From positions 1 to 23,206 of the IMG/VR virus record IMGVR_UViG_3300025407_000134: a DNA stretch of 23,206 nt. One strand, 5' to 3'. This document shows positions 7,024 through 21,391 of the stretch, piece after piece (within the stretch, counting starts at the first letter, position 1; each line of letters begins with the position of its first letter). The position numbers and the translations under genes were made by a program. The notes under the pieces were generated by a model. The model saw nothing but the letters and a program-made list of their open reading frames with translations. It ran no database searches and was not told where the DNA came from. Origin of the DNA: a virus.

Positions 7024-7189
7024 TTATTTTCTCCAACATGTTGTTTAGTTCTTCAACGTCTACTTCGTCAAGTAGTCCTAACGCGAACATACGATTCGTT
7101 ATGCTCTCGTTATAACCTTCATTATATATCATATGGTTATAAAAGTCAAGTCTTTTTTCAAATTTTTTACCACAAAAAGGACAAAACAT
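7013..7189 (-). CDS. Small zinc-finger-like protein, 58 aa
   Basis: An ATG at 7189 with a good AAGGA seven bases upstream opens a 58-codon frame starting MFCPFCGKKFEKRL and ending LEKINGK. The CPFCGKKF start followed by FYNHM gives a C-x2-C plus His arrangement typical of small phage zinc fingers; a second His ligand is not clear. The C-terminal half is an acidic helix (LLDEVDVEELNNMLEKI). It overlaps the next gene by 11 bases. A very good promoter lies inside its 5' third, so either the promoter is internal or the true start is the Met at residue 20. Confidence 0.55.
   Translation of the reverse strand: MFCPFCGKKFEKRLDFYNHMIYNEGYNESITNRMFALGLLDEVDVEELNNMLEKINGK
7121..7149 (-). promoter_or_regulatory. 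Early promoter within the zinc-finger ORF
   Basis: On the minus strand this is TTGACT, 17 bases, TATAAT, the same boxes and spacing as the uvsX promoter. Transcription would begin near 7114 and carry the 133-aa and 166-aa genes. It overlaps codons 14-22 of the 58-aa ORF. Confidence 0.72.
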
Positions 7190-7200
7190 GTTATTTCCTT

Positions 7201-7208
7201 AATAAATA
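7201..7208 (+). promoter_or_regulatory. Probable late promoter of the HNH gene
   Basis: AATAAATA preceded by TT and followed by G fits the relaxed late box (NATAAATA) of T4-type cyanophages. It lies 60 bases before the HNH ATG and shares its 11-base core with the box at 19373-19380. Confidence 0.5.
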
Positions 7209-7267
7209 GAATGTGGTTCACGAGTTCCGACGCTCCAACCACTCTATATCTATCAAGGAGATACAGC

Positions 7268-7954
7268 ATGTCTATTTATAAACGAACATCTAAGAACTAT
7301 CGTAAGATCTGGGAACAAGCAAATAACCAAAAGATACCTAAAGGGTATCACGTTCACCATATCGACGGCAATCACGAAAACAATCATCCTTCTAATCTGA
7401 CAGTCTTAACAGCCATAGAGCATTACAGAATCCATAGAGAACAAGGAGACTCTGGTGCTTGTTGGGCGATGATAGTGACAGGTCATATATCAGTATCGCC
7501 AGAAGAAAGAGCAGAAGTAGCAAGAATTAATGGATTGAAAAGAGCGGCGGAAAAGTCTTTATGGTCTCAATCAGATATAGGAAAAAAGACTCTTTCTGAA
7601 AATACAAGAAAAATGAATTTAGAAAGATCTGCTAACGGAACGCATTTTTCTCAGACAAAAGAGTTTAAAGGACTAATATCAAATTTTCAAAATAAAAGAA
7701 TAGAATCTGGAGAACATTTATTCGTATGCGATAACCCAGTATACAAGCAGATAGAACAAGGAAAAAATATATTCTGCACAGAGCAAAATCCATCAACCGT
7801 TGCTTCTAAAAACGGAACGCATTTATGGATCAGCGATAATCCATCTTATAAACAAAAATTAGAAGTTTTTGAATGTGAACTTTGTGGAAGATCTATTCAA
7901 AGCAAAGGTAACTATACTCAGCACCTAAGAGCTTGCAAGAAAAAGGGGGCATGA
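7268..7954 (+). CDS. HNH homing-type endonuclease with repeat region and zinc finger
   Basis: This 228-aa protein has three visible parts. The HNH nuclease is at about 28-56 (HVHHIDGNHENNHPSNL, then EHYRIH), with the His-His-Asp and Asn residues of the fold. The middle (123-196) has four degenerate repeats of the form G-T/E/K-H/N, about six residues, then often NP (for example NGTHLWISDNPSYKQ), resembling NUMOD3-type DNA-binding repeats. The end has a C2HC zinc finger (CELC with His219 and Cys223). The chosen ATG has AAGGAG seven bases upstream; the longer upstream frame has no ribosome site. Such genes are usually selfish homing elements cutting a specific phage site. It is the only plus-strand gene between two minus blocks and sits next to hsp20-pmoC. 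Confidence 0.88.
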   Translation: MSIYKRTSKNYRKIWEQANNQKIPKGYHVHHIDGNHENNHPSNLTVLTAIEHYRIHREQGDSGACWAMIVTGHISVSPEERAEVARINGLKRAAEKSLWSQSDIGKKTLSENTRKMNLERSANGTHFSQTKEFKGLISNFQNKRIESGEHLFVCDNPVYKQIEQGKNIFCTEQNPSTVASKNGTHLWISDNPSYKQKLEVFECELCGRSIQSKGNYTQHLRACKKKGA

Positions 7955-14918: not shown

Positions 14919-14951
14919 ACAAATACAGTTGTGATACTTTCGGAGAAAACC

Positions 14952-15386
14952 ATGACTAGCCGTAATCTGAAGTCCATTATTTTTCGTGGGGAAGTAATAG
15001 AAGATTATTTCGTTGACGATCTTGGTCTAATCTACAGCACAAAACGAGGGTCGCTTGCTTTATTGTCTGTTCAAAGAGGAGACGATTGGAACCCATACCC
15101 AAAAGTTACTATTAAAGTAGATGGCGCAAGGAAAACAGTTTCTGTTCACCGTTTAGTATGTGAAACTTTTCACAAAAAGCCACTACCAAATATATTGACA
15201 GAAAAAGAGTGGAATAGTATTGATAAAGTTATTCGCGATAAATTACTAGAACATATTCAACATGCTGATCGTTATCAGGTCAACCATATTGATCACGATC
15301 GTAATAATTTTCATCCTTCTAATCTTGAGTGGGTTACCGCATCCGAGAATCAGCAGAAGTTTCAAGAACACCGTAAAGCTGCCTAA
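14952..15386 (+). CDS. HNH endonuclease with a NUMOD4-like N-terminus, 144 aa
   Basis: The N-terminal region (VIEDYFVDDLGLIYSTKRG) and the VSVHRLVCETF block resemble the NUMOD4 module that precedes HNH domains. The HNH core is at about 108-128 (YQVNHIDHDRNNFHPSNLEW), with the His, Asp and Asn residues expected. It is probably a homing-type DNA cutter. The ATG has GGAGA seven bases upstream; an upstream GTG in frame has none. It differs in length, domain set and HNH type from the HNH protein at 7268, so they are independent acquisitions. A long-stem terminator follows. Confidence 0.88.
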   Translation: MTSRNLKSIIFRGEVIEDYFVDDLGLIYSTKRGSLALLSVQRGDDWNPYPKVTIKVDGARKTVSVHRLVCETFHKKPLPNILTEKEWNSIDKVIRDKLLEHIQHADRYQVNHIDHDRNNFHPSNLEWVTASENQQKFQEHRKAA

Positions 15387-15452: not shown

Positions 15453-15480
15453 TCTTTCTTGTGAAAAAAGAGCTTTACTT
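15453..15480 (+). repeat. Shared upstream element, copy 1
   Basis: These 28 bases are identical but for one base to 17545-17572. The element includes an A6 tract just upstream of the -35 box, resembling an UP element. It marks the helicase-nuclease and the methyltransferase units and is not seen at other early promoters here. Confidence 0.85.
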
Positions 15481-15502
15481 TCGTGGTATTAGGGGGTATA
15501 AT
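15474..15502 (+). promoter_or_regulatory. Early promoter of the helicase-nuclease unit
   Basis: TTTACT, 17 bases, TATAAT, with the shared ATATTGTAAG leader. It lies 49 bases before the helicase start. Confidence 0.88.
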
Positions 15503-15550
15503 ATATTGTAAGGTTGAAAAAGATACCTTAACTATATTATGGAGATAAAA

Positions 15551-16951
15551 GTGGAAAAGGTACTTCACCAGCATCAATTTGAAGCAATACAAGCCATCCT
15601 TAATATTAAAGGAGATAAAGGTAGAATTGTTATTCCTACTGGTGGCGGAAAGACTTTAGTAGAAGCATTAACATTAAGAGACCGCCTTAATAATAAGCGT
15701 GGCGGAAAGATTCATCTTGTTCTTGCTCCTCGTATTGTTCTTCTCAATCAATTGATGAAGAACTATCGTAATGAAATCGGACAAGACTATATTGCTCTTG
15801 CATTTCATTCAGGTCGTTATGAACCTGATTACACCAAGATTGTCTGGGATGAGAAATCCACAACTAGCATTAATGTTGTTGGTGAAGAATTCGAACGTGC
15901 TAAGCGTATGAAGAAAGACTTAGTAGTGTTTTCTACTTATTGCTCAGCGTTTAAATTGATAGATTACAACTTTCATACTCTTATTGCAGATGAATCACAA
16001 TATTGTGTCGCGGAAGGTTTCTTTGACACAGTTCGTGATTTGTCTTCAAAGTTAAAGCTGTTCTTTACAGCTACAGAGAAACATACATTTCATGACACTG
16101 GCCGTGGTCTTAATAACATTGACGTATATGGTGACCTTCTTTATCAAGTTTCTCCTTTGACGTTAGCTGAACGTGGTATTATTGTTCTTCCAAAATTACA
16201 CGTTATGACTGCTACTTCTAAAGATACAGTTAAGACTGTTGTCGACGAAGTAAAGAATATTGCTTTGGCTCAGTCTAAATTGACTAACGAAACAGGTATT
16301 CCGGTCAATAAGATCCTGTTTGCTATGGAAGGCACAGCCGACGTAGAGACTATCGCTAAGAAATGGGCGACTATCGTAACTGACATGCCAGGTTATCGTG
16401 TATTTACTATTACATCTAAAGGTGGCGCTAAGATTAACGGTAGAAATTATGGAAACAATAGGGCTGAATGGGAGAAAGAGCTTCGTGAAAGCGATAAAGC
16501 ATTAGTGTTTCATTATGATATCCTTGCGGAAGGCATCGATATAGACGGAATTACTGGTGTCGCTATACTTCGTAATATGAAACAAGCAAAATTGTTGCAG
16601 ACTATAGGTCGTGCTGTTAGAATCTATAAGGCTAATCCTTCTCTTAAGAAGAATTGCTGGGTTTCAGTTACCAATATCAATGGAGACGAAGAGAACCAAC
16701 GATTCATCATGGATATACTAATGCAGATACGTGCTGGTGGATTTGACATTGGTCGTGAAATGATGACTTTTACTGGTGAAGATGGATCTGGTATTAAAGA
16801 AGATGACGGTATACCAGATGCATATGGTAACAATGGTGCTTCTCTGGCTCAGTTTCTTCTTGATAATATTATGCATCAAGTAGAGAGATCAGAATTAGCA
16901 GAAACAATTTCTCTGATGGACATCAATCAACGTGAAGAGGCAGTATTCTAA
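15551..16951 (+). CDS. SF2 DNA helicase/translocase, restriction-enzyme type
   Basis: This 466-aa protein is a two-domain SF2 motor. Visible motifs are a Q-like LHQHQFEA (5-12), Walker A PTGGGKT (29-35), motif Ia APRIVLLNQL, motif II DESQ (147-150), motif III TAT (about 173-175), motif V EGIDID (about 327-332) and motif VI QTIGRAVR (350-357). The layout matches the ResIII-type translocase of restriction enzymes; T4 UvsW is a more distant alternative. The start is taken as GTG 15551, because GGAGA lies just upstream; the in-frame ATG at 15539 contains that signal and has none of its own. The stop overlaps the nuclease start as TAATG, so motor and nuclease are made together. Confidence 0.87.
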   Translation: MEKVLHQHQFEAIQAILNIKGDKGRIVIPTGGGKTLVEALTLRDRLNNKRGGKIHLVLAPRIVLLNQLMKNYRNEIGQDYIALAFHSGRYEPDYTKIVWDEKSTTSINVVGEEFERAKRMKKDLVVFSTYCSAFKLIDYNFHTLIADESQYCVAEGFFDTVRDLSSKLKLFFTATEKHTFHDTGRGLNNIDVYGDLLYQVSPLTLAERGIIVLPKLHVMTATSKDTVKTVVDEVKNIALAQSKLTNETGIPVNKILFAMEGTADVETIAKKWATIVTDMPGYRVFTITSKGGAKINGRNYGNNRAEWEKELRESDKALVFHYDILAEGIDIDGITGVAILRNMKQAKLLQTIGRAVRIYKANPSLKKNCWVSVTNINGDEENQRFIMDILMQIRAGGFDIGREMMTFTGEDGSGIKEDDGIPDAYGNNGASLAQFLLDNIMHQVERSELAETISLMDINQREEAVF

Positions 16952-17526
16952 TGTTAACTCTTAATCATAGATTCTCTGGCCAGTGTTATTCTATAGACAA
17001 ACTTCTGAGTAACACTCAGAAGCTATCAACTTTCATGCGTAAATTAGAATCACAAGCGACAGAATATCCAGATAGATGGGATAGAGATACATATGTTGGT
17101 GATGGATTCGAGTGTCTTGTTGAAGCTCTTATTAAGATGTCTCCTATTGATAAAAGAATTAACATAATTAACTATCAACCACAGCTTGGTCCTGATTATG
17201 GTATTGATGGTATAGGTTATGGTCATGACGGTCAAGCTCATACTATTCAGTGTAAGTATCGTTCCAATACTATTTCAGTTCTTACAGCTAACAAAGATCA
17301 TATATCTAACTTTGTCTCTCAGAGTGCTATGAAGTATAACATAAGCAAGGATTATGGACATATGACTATATTCACTACTGCTAAGACTCTTCATGAAGAG
17401 ATTAATAGAGAGATGTATGCAGAAAAAGTAAGAACATTAGGATATAATGAGATATCTAAGATGATTGATGGAAATAGTGGGTTCTGGTCTCAATTCAGAG
17501 ATGCGATGATGTACGCTCGAAGCTAA
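16951..17526 (+). CDS. Mrr-like restriction nuclease (PD-(D/E)XK)
   Basis: This 191-aa protein has the elements of an Mrr-type nuclease: a helix with Glu (GDGFECLVEAL, Glu54), then GIDGIG with Asp86, a 13-residue strand pair, and QCKYR with Gln100 and Lys102. Asp-x13-Q-x-K is the Mrr form of the active site. The preceding Tyr-x-Pro-x-Leu-Gly-Pro-Asp-Tyr region is consistent. The gene is coupled to the helicase by a TAATG overlap, implying one complex in which the motor drives and the nuclease cuts. In single-chain type ISP enzymes a similar nuclease is fused to the helicase; here they are separate. The target may be host DNA or a rival phage. Confidence 0.75.
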   Translation: MLTLNHRFSGQCYSIDKLLSNTQKLSTFMRKLESQATEYPDRWDRDTYVGDGFECLVEALIKMSPIDKRINIINYQPQLGPDYGIDGIGYGHDGQAHTIQCKYRSNTISVLTANKDHISNFVSQSAMKYNISKDYGHMTIFTTAKTLHEEINREMYAEKVRTLGYNEISKMIDGNSGFWSQFRDAMMYARS

Positions 17527-17544: not shown

Positions 17545-17572
17545 TCTTTCTTATGAAAAAAGAGCTTTACTT
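17545..17572 (+). repeat. Shared upstream element, copy 2
   Basis: This is the second copy of the 28-base element at 15453-15480, differing at one base, again ending in the -35 box. It ties the methyltransferase unit to the helicase-nuclease unit. Confidence 0.85.
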
Positions 17573-17594
17573 CTTGTCAATCTTAGGGTATAAT
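17566..17594 (+). promoter_or_regulatory. Early promoter of the methyltransferase unit
   Basis: TTTACT, 17 bases, TATAAT, followed by the shared transcript start and ribosome site, 30 bases before the ATG at 17624. Confidence 0.9.
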
Positions 17595-17623
17595 ATATTG
17601 TAAGATTGAGAAAGGGATTAAAG

Positions 17624-18694
17624 ATGTCTGCCGCTTCTTTTGATACATATGAGAAAAAGAAAGAGCTCGCAAATATAGTCTTTGGTAAAGATTTTGTTCG
17701 TAACGAACTTAATCCTCATTCTGTTCACACACCTTTCAGTTTATGTGAAGAAGTACTTTCTAAAATTGATTTGAATAATAAATCAATTTGTGTAGTATAT
17801 AATTTTGAATTTGTATGGGTGCTTAAACATCTATATAATATTGACGTCAGCGAAGTAGTTATTTGGACAGACGAATTCTCTGAATTTCATAACGGGAAAG
17901 CCAGTAAGATTGGTTGTATCTATTTGTGGGGAGAATTAGAAGATATGAAATTTGACGTTACTGTAGGTAATCCTCCTTTTAGTAATAATAAGGATATGTT
18001 ATATCCTAGATTCTTTCAGCTTTCTTTAGAGAATTCTAAAGAAGTTGCTATGATTATGCCAGAGAACTTAAATGTAAACTGGCGTTATTTTATCAACCAC
18101 AATAAACTAGTTAAGACTCATTCTAGAGAAATGATGGACGTAACATCACATTTTGGAGTAGGCATATCTTCTATGCATTGTGTGTTTGCTTCTAGGGATA
18201 TAAACAACAAAGTTGAACCTATTAAAGACAAATTCGAAGGATATAATGTTCTTTATCCGGAGAAGAAAAGACTAAAATGTATCAAGGGAGGATTTCCAAC
18301 TACATCAGGAATAGTAACAGAAAATGGTGACATTGAAGTAATAACCAAAGTTCATAAAACTGGACCTGTGATAGAGAAATATGACAGAAAACAAGTTAAT
18401 TCTGTTAGAAAATTAGAACGTCTTATATATAAAGGAAACAAACCATGGTTGTGTATAGTAAATCATACCCCATCTAGAGGTAAGTTTAACACATACATAT
18501 GTGAATCAAAGAATAAGATGTGGTCTGGGTTTGTGTTTGCTATAGAATGTAACAGTAAGAAAGAAGCAGAAGAAATGTCAAAGTGGCTTACTTCTGATGC
18601 TATAACAAACGAGAATATAAGATTGCTAGAGACAAACAAAACATATGCTACTTCTAAAACTTTGATAGAGAAGCTTCCGGATTTCAGAGATTAA
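17624..18694 (+). CDS. Adenine methyltransferase-like protein with NPPF but no SAM motif
   Basis: This 356-aa protein has the catalytic motif IV NPPF (116-119), preceded by FDVTVG and followed by RFFQLSLENSKEVAMIMPEN, exactly as in N6-adenine methyltransferases of the restriction type. An N-terminal VHTPFSLCEEVLSKI (about 34-48) resembles motif X. The SAM-binding motif I is not recognisable: where DPACGxG is expected there is ICVVYNFEFVWVLKHL. The C-terminal half (about 200-356) is probably the target-recognition region. The next gene begins one base after the stop and supplies motif I. AAAGGGA precedes the ATG. It could alternatively be an inactive DNA-recognition homologue. Confidence 0.7.
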   Translation: MSAASFDTYEKKKELANIVFGKDFVRNELNPHSVHTPFSLCEEVLSKIDLNNKSICVVYNFEFVWVLKHLYNIDVSEVVIWTDEFSEFHNGKASKIGCIYLWGELEDMKFDVTVGNPPFSNNKDMLYPRFFQLSLENSKEVAMIMPENLNVNWRYFINHNKLVKTHSREMMDVTSHFGVGISSMHCVFASRDINNKVEPIKDKFEGYNVLYPEKKRLKCIKGGFPTTSGIVTENGDIEVITKVHKTGPVIEKYDRKQVNSVRKLERLIYKGNKPWLCIVNHTPSRGKFNTYICESKNKMWSGFVFAIECNSKKEAEEMSKWLTSDAITNENIRLLETNKTYATSKTLIEKLPDFRD

Positions 18695-18695
18695 T

Positions 18696-19142
18696 ATGTG
18701 GAATAAGATAGCTGAACTAACCAACCAACACGGATATATGTCTGGCGTTGATCGTATGTCAGATCGTGTGAAGAAGACTGGTGAAGTATTCACACCGACT
18801 GATCTGGTCATTGAGATCCTACAAAAGATGGATATCGATACATTCGCTCCTGGCAAGACTGTTATTGATCCTGCCTGTGGAGACGGTCAGTTCTTAGTGC
18901 CAGTGAAATATCTTAAGATGCTACATTTCAATATGACGGAACAAGATGCATTGAAGGATATCTATGGTGTTGATATTATGAGAGACAACGTAGATATGTG
19001 TAAGAAGAGATTAGGTGGTGGTAATATTGTTATGGGAAATACGTTGGATCCTAATACAAGATTAGACGGACAAACAGATGAAGAATATAATAAGATGCGT
19101 CAATGGTTTGGTTCTACAGATGTCACGAGCTTCTTTAGTTAA
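18696..19142 (+). CDS. Methyltransferase SAM-binding half, 148 aa
   Basis: This protein holds the front part of a type I-like adenine methyltransferase: motif X TGEVFTP (28-34), motif I DPACGDGQF (58-66), motif II GVDI (91-94) and a motif III-like NIVMGNTLDP (110-119). It ends at residue 148 before any NPP[YF] motif, so it lacks the catalytic loop. From memory, stand-alone proteins of this length exist in other T4-type phages, so this may be a normal form rather than a truncation. Its direct neighbour upstream has the missing NPPF. The last 23 bases overlap the next gene. Confidence 0.78.
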   Translation: MWNKIAELTNQHGYMSGVDRMSDRVKKTGEVFTPTDLVIEILQKMDIDTFAPGKTVIDPACGDGQFLVPVKYLKMLHFNMTEQDALKDIYGVDIMRDNVDMCKKRLGGGNIVMGNTLDPNTRLDGQTDEEYNKMRQWFGSTDVTSFFS

Positions 19143-19380: not shown

Positions 19381-19405
19381 GTTCTGCAGTGCGATGTAGC
19401 CCGAA

Positions 19406-19434
19406 GGGGAGTGATGGGAATCACTCCTCTTTTT
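19406..19434 (+). terminator. Terminator before the 158-aa gene
   Basis: GGAGTGAT and ATCACTCC pair perfectly around GGGA, with two further weaker pairs, followed by five Ts. It would end transcription of the methyltransferase unit. Confidence 0.82.
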
Positions 19435-19450: not shown

Positions 19451-19927
19451 ATGCTAGCAACTCTTTTGACATTTAATCTTAGACACAAAGAAAGCTACAG
19501 AATATTAGCTTCTCAATTAAATTTATTTTCTAGTCCTACATATCCTCAAAATCTTACTGGATCTGATTTTTCTTCTCAAATAATAATAACTCCTGAAAAT
19601 GGCAGTTTTGAATATACTAATCGTGGTCTCACATCTGATGTTATTCTTAGAATTAATAAATTAGGCCAAGATCCTAGTAATTATCTTCTTGTTTCAATGA
19701 GGTCAGTAGACGATATTGCAGAAAAATGTTTCAAAATAGATGTTTCCAGTCACGATAAAAACTCTTATCCAAATTATAAAAGTATTAGTGGGAAATATGA
19801 TTACGACGCCCAACACCAATTTGACATTGAAACTTCAGAAAAAGAAACATTTCGCTTTCTTATTTCTACTGATTCTCTTAGAACAAATAACGTAATTAGA
19901 GCCACATGCGAATTCTATAAACTGTAG
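19451..19927 (+). CDS. Late-region hypothetical protein, 158 aa
   Basis: This protein begins MLATLLTFNLRHKESYRILA and is otherwise beta-rich with many Ser, Asn and Tyr, without membrane segments. The C-terminal portion (FDIETSEKETFRFLISTDSL, then TCEFYKL) has the same order of features as the two following proteins: a charged turn, an edge strand, a charged gap and a final strand. I regard the three as probably related, this one being the most distant. AGGAGA lies nine bases before the ATG. Small beta-rich late proteins in a row suggest virion decoration or fibre parts, but this is unproven. Confidence 0.7.
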   Translation: MLATLLTFNLRHKESYRILASQLNLFSSPTYPQNLTGSDFSSQIIITPENGSFEYTNRGLTSDVILRINKLGQDPSNYLLVSMRSVDDIAEKCFKIDVSSHDKNSYPNYKSISGKYDYDAQHQFDIETSEKETFRFLISTDSLRTNNVIRATCEFYKL

Positions 19928-19938
19928 GAGAGAAATAA

Positions 19939-20403
19939 ATGAAAGATGTAAGAATAAAGGTATTACCTGGTAATTTCTTAGATAGTATAGGCATAAATGT
20001 TTTCATGATAGAGAATAATATATCTGAATACGATGCATATATAAAAGGAAATATTACTAGATTTAATCATTTTGTGGAGTTTCAAGGAGGCAGAGCGGCT
20101 GGATTTCCTGATATGAAAGGCGAATTGAATTACAGGGGAAATAAATTCAAATTCCAGGCTTGTAACATAATATTCAGAAGACCTGTTTTTGATATAGCTG
20201 GCAAAGACGATAAAATGATAGAATGGTCTATGTCTGAAGGAGATTCAGTAAAAGCTAAAATTGATGGTGTGAATTTTCTAATAAAAAGATTAGAGAATGG
20301 TGATGGCGCTATATTATTCGAACTATATGTTGATTGTATGTTTGATGGGGAACCAGCACCTCCATCAACAGTTCATCGTAGAGAAACCATAGAATCACTA
20401 TAA
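19939..20403 (+). CDS. Late-region beta-rich protein, 154 aa
   Basis: The protein starts MKDVRIKVLPGNFLDSIGIN and ends with a disordered TVHRRETIESL tail. The segment MSEGDSVKAKIDGVNFLIKR followed by LENGDGAILFELYVDC closely parallels the end of the 159-aa protein downstream (NEDHIWEFQGVKFRVKR, then DDDDAKKFNVYINW), supporting common descent. Fold and function are unknown. GGAG lies nine bases before the ATG and 11 bases separate it from the previous stop. Its own stop codon overlaps the late promoter of the next gene. Confidence 0.72.
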   Translation: MKDVRIKVLPGNFLDSIGINVFMIENNISEYDAYIKGNITRFNHFVEFQGGRAAGFPDMKGELNYRGNKFKFQACNIIFRRPVFDIAGKDDKMIEWSMSEGDSVKAKIDGVNFLIKRLENGDGAILFELYVDCMFDGEPAPPSTVHRRETIESL

Positions 20404-20406
20404 ATA
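20399..20406 (+). promoter_or_regulatory. Late promoter (TATAAATA) overlapping a stop codon
   Basis: An exact late box, 40 bases before the 159-aa gene. Initiation near 20412 falls inside the 5' arm of the terminator at 20409-20424, so new transcripts would escape that hairpin. Confidence 0.75.
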
Positions 20407-20408
20407 AG

Positions 20409-20431
20409 GGGAGCTTCGGCTCCCTTTTTTT
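20409..20431 (+). terminator. UUCG-loop terminator
   Basis: GGGAGC, TTCG, GCTCCC and then seven Ts make a textbook terminator with the very stable C(UUCG)G loop. It ends the 19451-20403 transcript. Confidence 0.93.
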
Positions 20432-20445
20432 ATTAGGAGAAATCA

Positions 20446-20925
20446 ATGTCAATGCCAGTAAGAGTTTGTGTTCAGTGGGGAACTGTACCGTCCAGGGAAG
20501 ATGGTTGGCCTTACTGGTGGAACGACGATTACGTATTAGGCTTCAATGTTCATATGTTCGACAACGGTAACAACGATTACGCACACAACAACACCAGCAC
20601 CATATTTAGGAACAAGGACCCACAGCCAGACTTATTATGTTGGACAGGCCATGACGCCTGGAGCGGGATCGATCTCGGCGGTGATGTGAAAGGTATCGAC
20701 AAGAACGGTCATAACCTGTACGTATACTTTTATACGAACAACCCAACCATGGGTTGGCCGACGTTCGCAATGAGCCAGTCAATTGGCGATGATTCTAACG
20801 ATCATAAGTTCGAAGCCAACGAGGATCATATATGGGAGTTTCAAGGCGTGAAGTTTCGCGTCAAGAGAGAAGTAGATGATGACGATGCGAAAAAGTTTAA
20901 TGTTTATATAAATTGGACAGGATGA
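20446..20925 (+). CDS. Late-region aromatic, beta-rich protein, 159 aa
   Basis: A protein rich in Trp, Asn, Asp and Gly, starting MSMPVRVCVQWGTVPSREDG, with repeated W-x-x-D and N-N-D clusters and a final FRVKREVDDDDAKKFNVYIN. The end is related to the 154-aa protein upstream. No signal peptide or membrane segment is seen. The base composition is richer in G and C than its two relatives upstream, so it may be an older or transferred copy. GGAGA lies six bases before the ATG. A carbohydrate-binding or virion-surface role would fit the aromatic content but is inference. Confidence 0.72.
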   Translation: MSMPVRVCVQWGTVPSREDGWPYWWNDDYVLGFNVHMFDNGNNDYAHNNTSTIFRNKDPQPDLLCWTGHDAWSGIDLGGDVKGIDKNGHNLYVYFYTNNPTMGWPTFAMSQSIGDDSNDHKFEANEDHIWEFQGVKFRVKREVDDDDAKKFNVYINWTG

Positions 20926-20929
20926 TAAT

Positions 20930-21391
20930 ATGGCAGTGAAACCTACAACAACAAGAACAAGAAGGGTAACGAAACCAAAGGCTGAAGCCGAGGTGAGTGA
21001 AGTCCCAGCGGATGTGCCAGTTGACGAGTCCGGTAACCAAATTATTGATGAGGCACCTCCACAACAGGAGGGTAATATGGCTATTTACGATAATATTGTA
21101 AACAAGGCAGCTGAGGTATACAAATTTAATCCTATCCTTACGGGTATGATTATTCTTTTGATTCTTATCATCGGCGCTCTTGGTTATTATATGATGCGAA
21201 ATGACGACAGAATATATGCATATATTTCATATAAGGATAAGCAAACAGCAGACTTATATGACCGAGTAATTACAATGGCAAAGGAATGTAAGGATAAGCC
21301 ACTTGATAGAGGCAATTTCCCTTTGCTTGAGTTCCCTCGCACGACTACTAAGAGTCAGGCAACGCCGACTAAGGGCGACGGAGTCCAGTAA
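20930..21391 (+). CDS. Single-pass membrane protein with a nested start, 153 aa
   Basis: The N-terminal 49 residues are charged and proline-rich (TTTRTRRVTKPKAEAEVSEV). One membrane segment lies at about 68-88 (PILTGMIILLILIIGALGYY), then a 60-residue polar tail with a helix (YISYKDKQTADLYDRVITMA). An internal ATG at 21077 (Met50) has GGAGGG five bases upstream, a better ribosome site than that of the long form, so a 104-aa form beginning MAIYDNIVNKAAEVYKF is likely also made. Dual starts and N-in topology occur in holins, and holin is a candidate role, but length and single segment do not prove it. It is the last gene before a strong terminator. Confidence 0.75.
   Translation: MAVKPTTTRTRRVTKPKAEAEVSEVPADVPVDESGNQIIDEAPPQQEGNMAIYDNIVNKAAEVYKFNPILTGMIILLILIIGALGYYMMRNDDRIYAYISYKDKQTADLYDRVITMAKECKDKPLDRGNFPLLEFPRTTTKSQATPTKGDGVQ

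Follow-up and report, generated by a model that had tools for sequence, protein, structure and literature searches.

The window analysed here, the whole 23,206-nucleotide stretch of the IMG/VR virus record IMGVR_UViG_3300025407_000134, is part of a T4-like phage: it carries genes for a DnaB-like helicase, UvsX and a family-B polymerase. It also contains two adjacent genes that between them encode one set of DNA methyltransferase motifs (Table 1). The first specifies a 356-residue protein with the motif IV tetrapeptide NPPF, and the second a 148-residue protein, referred to below as the S-adenosylmethionine (SAM) half, that carries the cofactor-binding motifs. A single base separates the genes, the stop codon of the first ending at 18694 and the ATG of the second lying at 18696. 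A preliminary description, made from the sequence alone, had reported two methyltransferase genes with complementary motifs; the open reading frames (ORFs), Pfam and a reading of the motifs bore out both the gene coordinates and the complementarity. A programmed frameshift joining the two genes was ruled out by the small gene's own ATG and by the overlap or gap between the genes, which varies among loci.

The SAM half contained motif X (GEVFTPTDLV), motif I (DPACGDG), motif II (YGVDIM) and motif III, and ended before any NPP. Pfam identified an N6_Mtase domain at residues 24-103 (E = 2.4e-8), and a profile of the SAM half matched residues 11-108 of M.BseCI (E = 1.2e-7). Comparison of the window's SAM half with that of another phage locus, L010, gave a nonsynonymous divergence (dN) of 0.076 and a synonymous divergence (dS) of ~1.6. 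By this measure (dN/dS ~0.05), purifying selection on the SAM half is strong.

The 356-residue protein carried NPPF at residues 116-119, in agreement with the NPP[YFW] motif IV of gamma-class methyltransferases, and no DP..G.G or DPxxGxG loop anywhere. According to Pfam, its only similarity was to Eco57I (residues 80-126; E = 1e-4, under the Pfam cut-off). Motif I and motif IV of the gamma class are thus on different chains in the window, DPACGDG being in the second ORF and ICVVYNFEF in the first, where the motif I position contains zero glycines. The AlphaFold model of the NPPF protein was of low confidence (predicted local distance difference test, pLDDT, 63.7). In this model, a strand (residues 55-58) is followed immediately by a helix (residues 61-70), and there is no loop for SAM. 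VIA-align superposed the same model on M.TaqI with a Z score of 13.7 over 261 residues (root-mean-square deviation of 5.0), spanning residues 34-356, and thereby assigned an M.TaqI-like fold to a model with a pLDDT of 63.7. When the degenerate N-termini of this and related proteins were compared with SAM halves using hhalign, only motif X matched (probability 83.6, E = 8e-6, 21 columns).

Judged from the model, the NPPF protein looks like a complete M.TaqI-type fold with a dead cofactor loop and not a bare half, and the loss appears to concern the motif I glycine loop and not the entire SAM half. The earlier statement that the first protein has NPPF and lacks DPACGxG therefore stands as far as the sequence is concerned; the word 'half' does not, as motif X is retained and the fold of the missing half is modelled. 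A hidden intact SAM pocket, raised in the same description as a possible objection, was sought in both sequence and model: the fold is apparently present, and the pocket loop is absent. The degenerate motif I could also be taken as a sign of decay, the two genes being remnants of a methyltransferase on its way out and having no joint activity. The dN/dS ratio of the SAM half, the invariance of NPP, motif X and GxG, the wide occurrence of the pair and the possession of its own promoter-like site all argue against decay, which we find hardly credible.

Table 1. Features of the methyltransferase gene pair and of the linked genes and elements in the window.
Feature	Position	Strand	Basis
Promoter-like site of helicase and nuclease genes	15474..15517	+	Sequence motif; recurring 23-mer
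Superfamily 2 (SF2) helicase, Type ISP-like, linked cassette gene	15539..16951	+	Profile of eight relatives
Mrr_cat_2 nuclease (predicted), linked cassette gene	16951..17526	+	Pfam 5e-7; alignment A11
Promoter-like site of pair, TTTACT-17-TATAAT plus phage-specific TGTAAGATTGA	17566..17609	+	Sequence motif; recurring 23-mer
NPPF/target-recognition subunit, 356 residues	17624..18694	+	M.TaqI-like fold, apparently dead cofactor loop (VIA-align, AlphaFold)
Retained motif X of NPPF protein (VHTPFSLCEEVLSKID; VHTPFSLCEEVLSKI)	17723..17767	+	hhalign
Degenerate motif I position, SICVVYNFEF, no glycine loop	17783..17812	+	Sequence; strand then helix in AlphaFold model
Motif IV NPPF, catalytic (predicted)	17969..17980	+	NPP invariant in all alignment rows
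Putative target-recognition region, ~residues 200-356	18221..18691	+	Aligns with C-terminal part of M.TaqI; boundary putative
SAM half, 148 residues, motifs X, I, II and III, no NPP	18696..19142	+	ORF, Pfam, alignment, profile
Motif I DPACGDG of SAM half	18867..18887	+	GxG invariant in 21 aligned halves
Terminator-like hairpin after pair	19403..19432	+	13-pair stem; weak: 2 found in region, 2.0 expected

Relatives of the pair were reached through the SAM half and not through the NPPF protein: tblastn of the latter against phage records gave no match, and a scan of viral contigs with it returned only the same virus. Scans of IMG/VR yielded at least 64 loci with the SAM half as query and at least 80 with profiles, for a total of at least 98 distinct loci after removal of duplicates. 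Among the matches listed, 79 of the 98 distinct viral loci had an NPP gene as the immediate upstream neighbour of the SAM half. The background rate of NPP[FYW] was 9 of 343 (2.6%) other ORFs of at least 200 residues, indicating that NPP genes occur upstream of SAM halves more often than by chance. The remaining 19 listed loci comprised nine without an upstream ORF at a contig edge, two that were cut and eight others, five of which had an NPP gene within 4 kb.

The phage partners differed mainly in what precedes NPP. Among the matches listed, the partner had NPP within its first 48 residues and no SAM half in 38 loci; 21 partners, including that of the window, had at least 70 residues before NPP and no motif I; two had lost one motif I glycine; and seven exceeded 1,100 residues, with NPP far along the chain. 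Because the 38 short partners begin near NPPF, with no room for a SAM half, their SAM pocket must come from another chain. The degenerate N-termini of longer partners shared motif X and, where the glycine loop is expected, a pattern such as VLFNxEFV. Intact partner N-termini aligned with the SAM half over 78 columns (hhalign probability 99.6). With a match at motif X only, it is plausible that the degenerate half descended from a duplicated SAM half. In a tree of 98 columns, whose deep support was only 0.545, the standalone halves were apart from the partner N-termini, making numerous recent tandem duplications less likely.

In alignments of the partner families, NPP was invariant, and the motif VI proline and a later phenylalanine were invariant or nearly so. 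This conservation does not support the suggestion of the preliminary description that the first protein is a non-catalytic DNA reader, a role in which the small protein would work with another NPP protein encoded elsewhere. The long region after NPPF would suit a reader; the direct adjacency of the two genes in most listed loci and the natural fusions described below are further points against it, and we regard it as very improbable.

The pairing extended to bacteria. In 59 of 72 bacterial loci, an NPPY gene, mostly of ~500-600 residues, was directly downstream of the SAM half, which was of ~200-300 residues. EP..GxG was kept in all 72 bacterial SAM halves, and motif I of the NPPY partners was DPxxK[ST]G in 56 of 59, with a lysine replacing the first glycine. 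The bacterial partner's SAM motif is therefore degenerate where the adjoining gene encodes an intact one. The SAM half came first in each of the 59 bacterial loci with a neighbour, as it did in phage ACG-2014f. The reversed gene order pointed out previously thus holds for the window and is typical of phages, but gene order is not a fixed feature of the system.

Partners varied much more than SAM halves. In many pairs alike, SAM halves that were ~80-90% identical accompanied NPP proteins that were 20-32% identical. The clearest case was that of the window and L010, whose SAM halves were 90% identical and whose partners were 25% identical; motif I was intact-looking in the L010 partner and not in that of the window. 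Locus L068 contained three NPPY genes and one SAM half. Since SAM halves up to 90% identical occur with partners only 25% identical, the partner appears to be exchangeable. On these sequence comparisons, we interpret the pair as a constant subunit for cofactor binding, the SAM half, combined with an exchangeable subunit for catalysis and recognition, the NPP protein.

Fused homologues, a search for which had been proposed in the preliminary description, were found in the Aeromonas phages phiAS5, Ah1, Aeh1 and PX29. In each, a single gene encoded, from N- to C-terminus, NPPY, a recognition region, motif X and motif I. As MAFFT misaligned the permuted parts when fused, split and long forms were aligned jointly, alignment A7 was used instead; in it, the first part of the fusion aligned with separate NPPY proteins and the last part with separate SAM halves. 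In the tree, the fused SAM part clustered (support 0.978) with halves encoded as separate genes in other Straboviridae; a split pair is thus the most likely origin of the fusion. An AlphaFold model of the fusion (pLDDT 79.7; predicted template modelling score 0.77) matched the beta-class enzyme TTHA0409 over residues 1-403 and MboIIA over residues 1-373, both with a VIA-align Z score of 10.3, and the N-terminal part alone matched M.TaqI residues 95-413. Foldseek with the fused model returned nothing at or below an E-value of 1e-3. In a single chain, the halves are predicted to build one beta-class-like methyltransferase, and this predicted structure is the best available test of the interface between them.

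The pair is linked to genes for a helicase and a nuclease. According to a profile of eight relatives, the best solved match of the helicase was LlaGI (1.2e-18), followed by LlaBIII (1.5e-17), with T4 UvsW far lower (3.7e-8); it is thus an SF2 helicase of the LlaGI kind. The nuclease is of the Mrr family, as in Type ISP enzymes (Mrr_cat_2), and its catalytic-type positions, Glu, DxGxD and QxK, were invariant (alignment A11). LlaGI, a Type ISP enzyme, comprises an Mrr nuclease, an SF2 helicase, a methyltransferase and a recognition domain in a single chain (PMC4666363). The cassette has the same parts as LlaGI and LlaBIII, but divided among four genes, beginning at 15539, 16951, 17624 and 18696, with the SAM half separate. 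The four genes occurred together in eight phage loci and in four orders: helicase-Mrr-NPP-SAM in the window, L071, L075, L076 and L068; SAM-Mrr-NPP-helicase in ACG-2014f; Mrr-NPP-helicase-SAM in S-CAM7; and helicase-NPP-Mrr-SAM in Bellamy. The recurrence of the same genes in different orders argues for a shared function and suggests that the pair, the helicase and the nuclease constitute a dissociated Type ISP-like system that would act in restriction.

A different account of the cassette, itself compatible with a heterodimer, treats the pair as an orphan modification enzyme and assigns the helicase and Mrr nuclease to replication or recombination rather than to restriction. Consistent with this, no relative of the window's Mrr nuclease adjoins the short-type pairs, a separate promoter-like site precedes the pair, and helicase relatives sit elsewhere in other phages. 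The co-occurrence in eight loci despite four different orders, and a helicase profile nearer to LlaGI than to UvsW, argue the other way. We hold this account to be possible but doubtful.

Overall, these data make it likely that the pair encodes one gamma-type heterodimeric adenine-N6 methyltransferase with a composite active site, made of a constant SAM subunit and an exchangeable subunit for catalysis and target recognition, and probably forming the modification arm of the cassette. The 148-residue subunit would bind SAM and would contain strands beta1-3 together with motifs X, I, II and III. Strands beta4-7, the catalytic loop with NPPF and the target-recognition domain (TRD) would belong to the 356-residue subunit, such that SAM would come from one protein, and NPPF and recognition from the other. 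As the modification arm, the pair would probably work with the helicase and nuclease like a Type ISP enzyme taken apart. The heterodimer, one of the possibilities put forward in the preliminary description, is supported by the conserved pairing, the 38 listed partners that start near NPPF and the fusions modelled as one methyltransferase; we infer from these that the two proteins associate physically, that SAM is delivered to NPPF and that the product is a methylated adenine.

Several observations weigh against this interpretation. In the model of the window's NPPF protein (pLDDT 63.7), a retained pseudo-SAM half would occupy the docking site of the real half. Simple complementation would then need displacement: either the pseudo-half is displaced when the SAM half docks beside it, or the SAM half acts in another way. 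In addition, motif I looks intact (DPACGYG, DPAMGGG or similar) in 11 listed phage partners that adjoin a SAM half of the same family, so the SAM half does more than occupy a vacant site. In three listed viral loci, no NPP gene lies within 4 kb of the SAM half, although these loci may be fragments or re-ordered. Finally, a search of the PDB with the Mrr profile gave no match. The 11 intact-looking partners, and the whole TaqI-like fold predicted for the window's NPPF protein, would fit a SAM half that is accessory or allosteric; the large subunit would then methylate through a cofactor site of its own, whether degenerate or intact, and the small subunit would sense SAM or stabilize the complex. 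This is unlikely in view of the 38 listed partners that lack the SAM half altogether, the Aeromonas fusions whose single SAM site is that of the small subunit, the lack of any glycine in the window's motif I and the substitution of lysine for glycine in nearly all bacterial partners.

Among characterized enzymes, gamma-class N6-adenine methyltransferases (M.TaqI, M.BseCI, CamA and the Eco57I family) gave the best structural and profile matches. They have in common with the pair the FTP of motif X, DPACGxG, NPPF, the fold and the layout of the TRD. By contrast, they are single chains with an intact pocket, whereas the working SAM motifs of the window pair are on a second polypeptide. Beta-class amino-methyltransferases (MboIIA, RsrI, CcrM and TTHA0409) share with the Aeromonas fusion the order NPPY...X-I and, according to VIA-align, the overall fold. 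However, the motif signatures here are gamma-type (FTP, DPACGDG), and the window has two ORFs where the beta class has one chain with the order IV, TRD, X, I. Split (M.AquI) and permuted methyltransferases are already known (PMC5944983), and a model invoking gene duplication and truncation has been used to explain circular permutation (cited in PMC5944983). Like the pair, M.AquI, a naturally bisected C5-methyltransferase, is one methyltransferase from two genes. Compared with M.AquI and the permuted C5-methyltransferases M.BssHII and M.Alw26I, the enzyme proposed here is an amino-methyltransferase, and its split separates the cofactor part from the catalytic part.

A three-gene operon that is widespread in bacteria encodes a SAM half, an NPPY protein containing DPxxKSG and, third, a large protein (L164 5926-11071, L171 6031-11418 and L175 5950-10824). 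In both L164 and L171, this third protein has a T5orf172-type GIY-YIG domain; in L164, it also shows helicase similarity. These operons share with the window an intact SAM half adjoining an NPP partner, here NPPY, with a degenerate motif I; they differ in that the SAM half comes first and the nuclease is a GIY-YIG (T5orf172) fused to the helicase. With PADLOC, the other two proteins of the operon (NPPY and GIY-YIG-helicase) were both related to one Type IIG model. Searches of the open-access literature returned no report describing the pair, the phage cassette or a constant SAM subunit that works with interchangeable catalytic partners.

We tentatively propose, with not quite an even chance of its holding, an architecture common to phages and bacteria: a constant, separate cofactor subunit, an exchangeable catalytic and recognition subunit, a Type ISP-like coupling in phages, and relatives that show steps of permutation. 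In these living relatives, the SAM domain of the partner would be successively intact, degenerate and deleted, and the halves then rejoined in permuted order. The family would thereby supply, in related phages, natural candidates for each step of duplication and truncation, as well as a split-and-rejoin route; with candidates for each step, the path is testable by making and assaying them. More broadly, a pair whose partners are swapped, worn down, lost or fused in related phages and bacteria would be a record of how such enzymes are rebuilt. If the SAM subunit is generic, one small protein could serve many recognition subunits, an unusual route to new DNA specificity and a handle for engineering. 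If the proposal is true, some T4-like phages would carry their own restriction-modification system.

Some loci contained partners of unusual composition. In L069, L113, L115, L123, L131, L142 and L150, the SAM half is directly downstream of a protein of 1,100-1,250 residues with NPP near residue 866-967; these proteins are perhaps fused nuclease-helicase-methylase chains. In T4-like phages of Vibrio, Shigella and Klebsiella (L004 1837-3495, L005 1970-3469 and L001 1987-3132), a LEM-3-like GIY-YIG is fused before NPPY and adjoins a SAM half; these phages may carry a Type IIG-like system. The partner in Synechococcus phage S-CAM7 isolate 0809CC03 (L006 2546-3499), beside a SAM half, has NFPF replacing NPPF. 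A contig labelled Geodermatophilus (L156 1409-2005) encodes a SAM half 62% identical to that of the window, far above other bacterial matches, and may be phage DNA in a Geodermatophilus assembly.

Across the window, a 23-base promoter-like element, GGTATAATATAnTGTAAGATTGA, occurs five times on the + strand before gene blocks (13465, 13764, 15495, 17587 and 21529; chance expectation 0.00) and is perhaps an early or middle promoter of the phage. HNH endonuclease genes are present at 14931-15386 (+) and 7133-7954 (+); the former, directly upstream of the helicase-nuclease-methylase genes, could aid movement of the cassette. After the pair, positions 19451-21391 (+) contain four consecutive ORFs of 153-159 residues without PHROG matches. 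Relatives of the last two, with ~76% identity, are also found beside the SAM half in L010.
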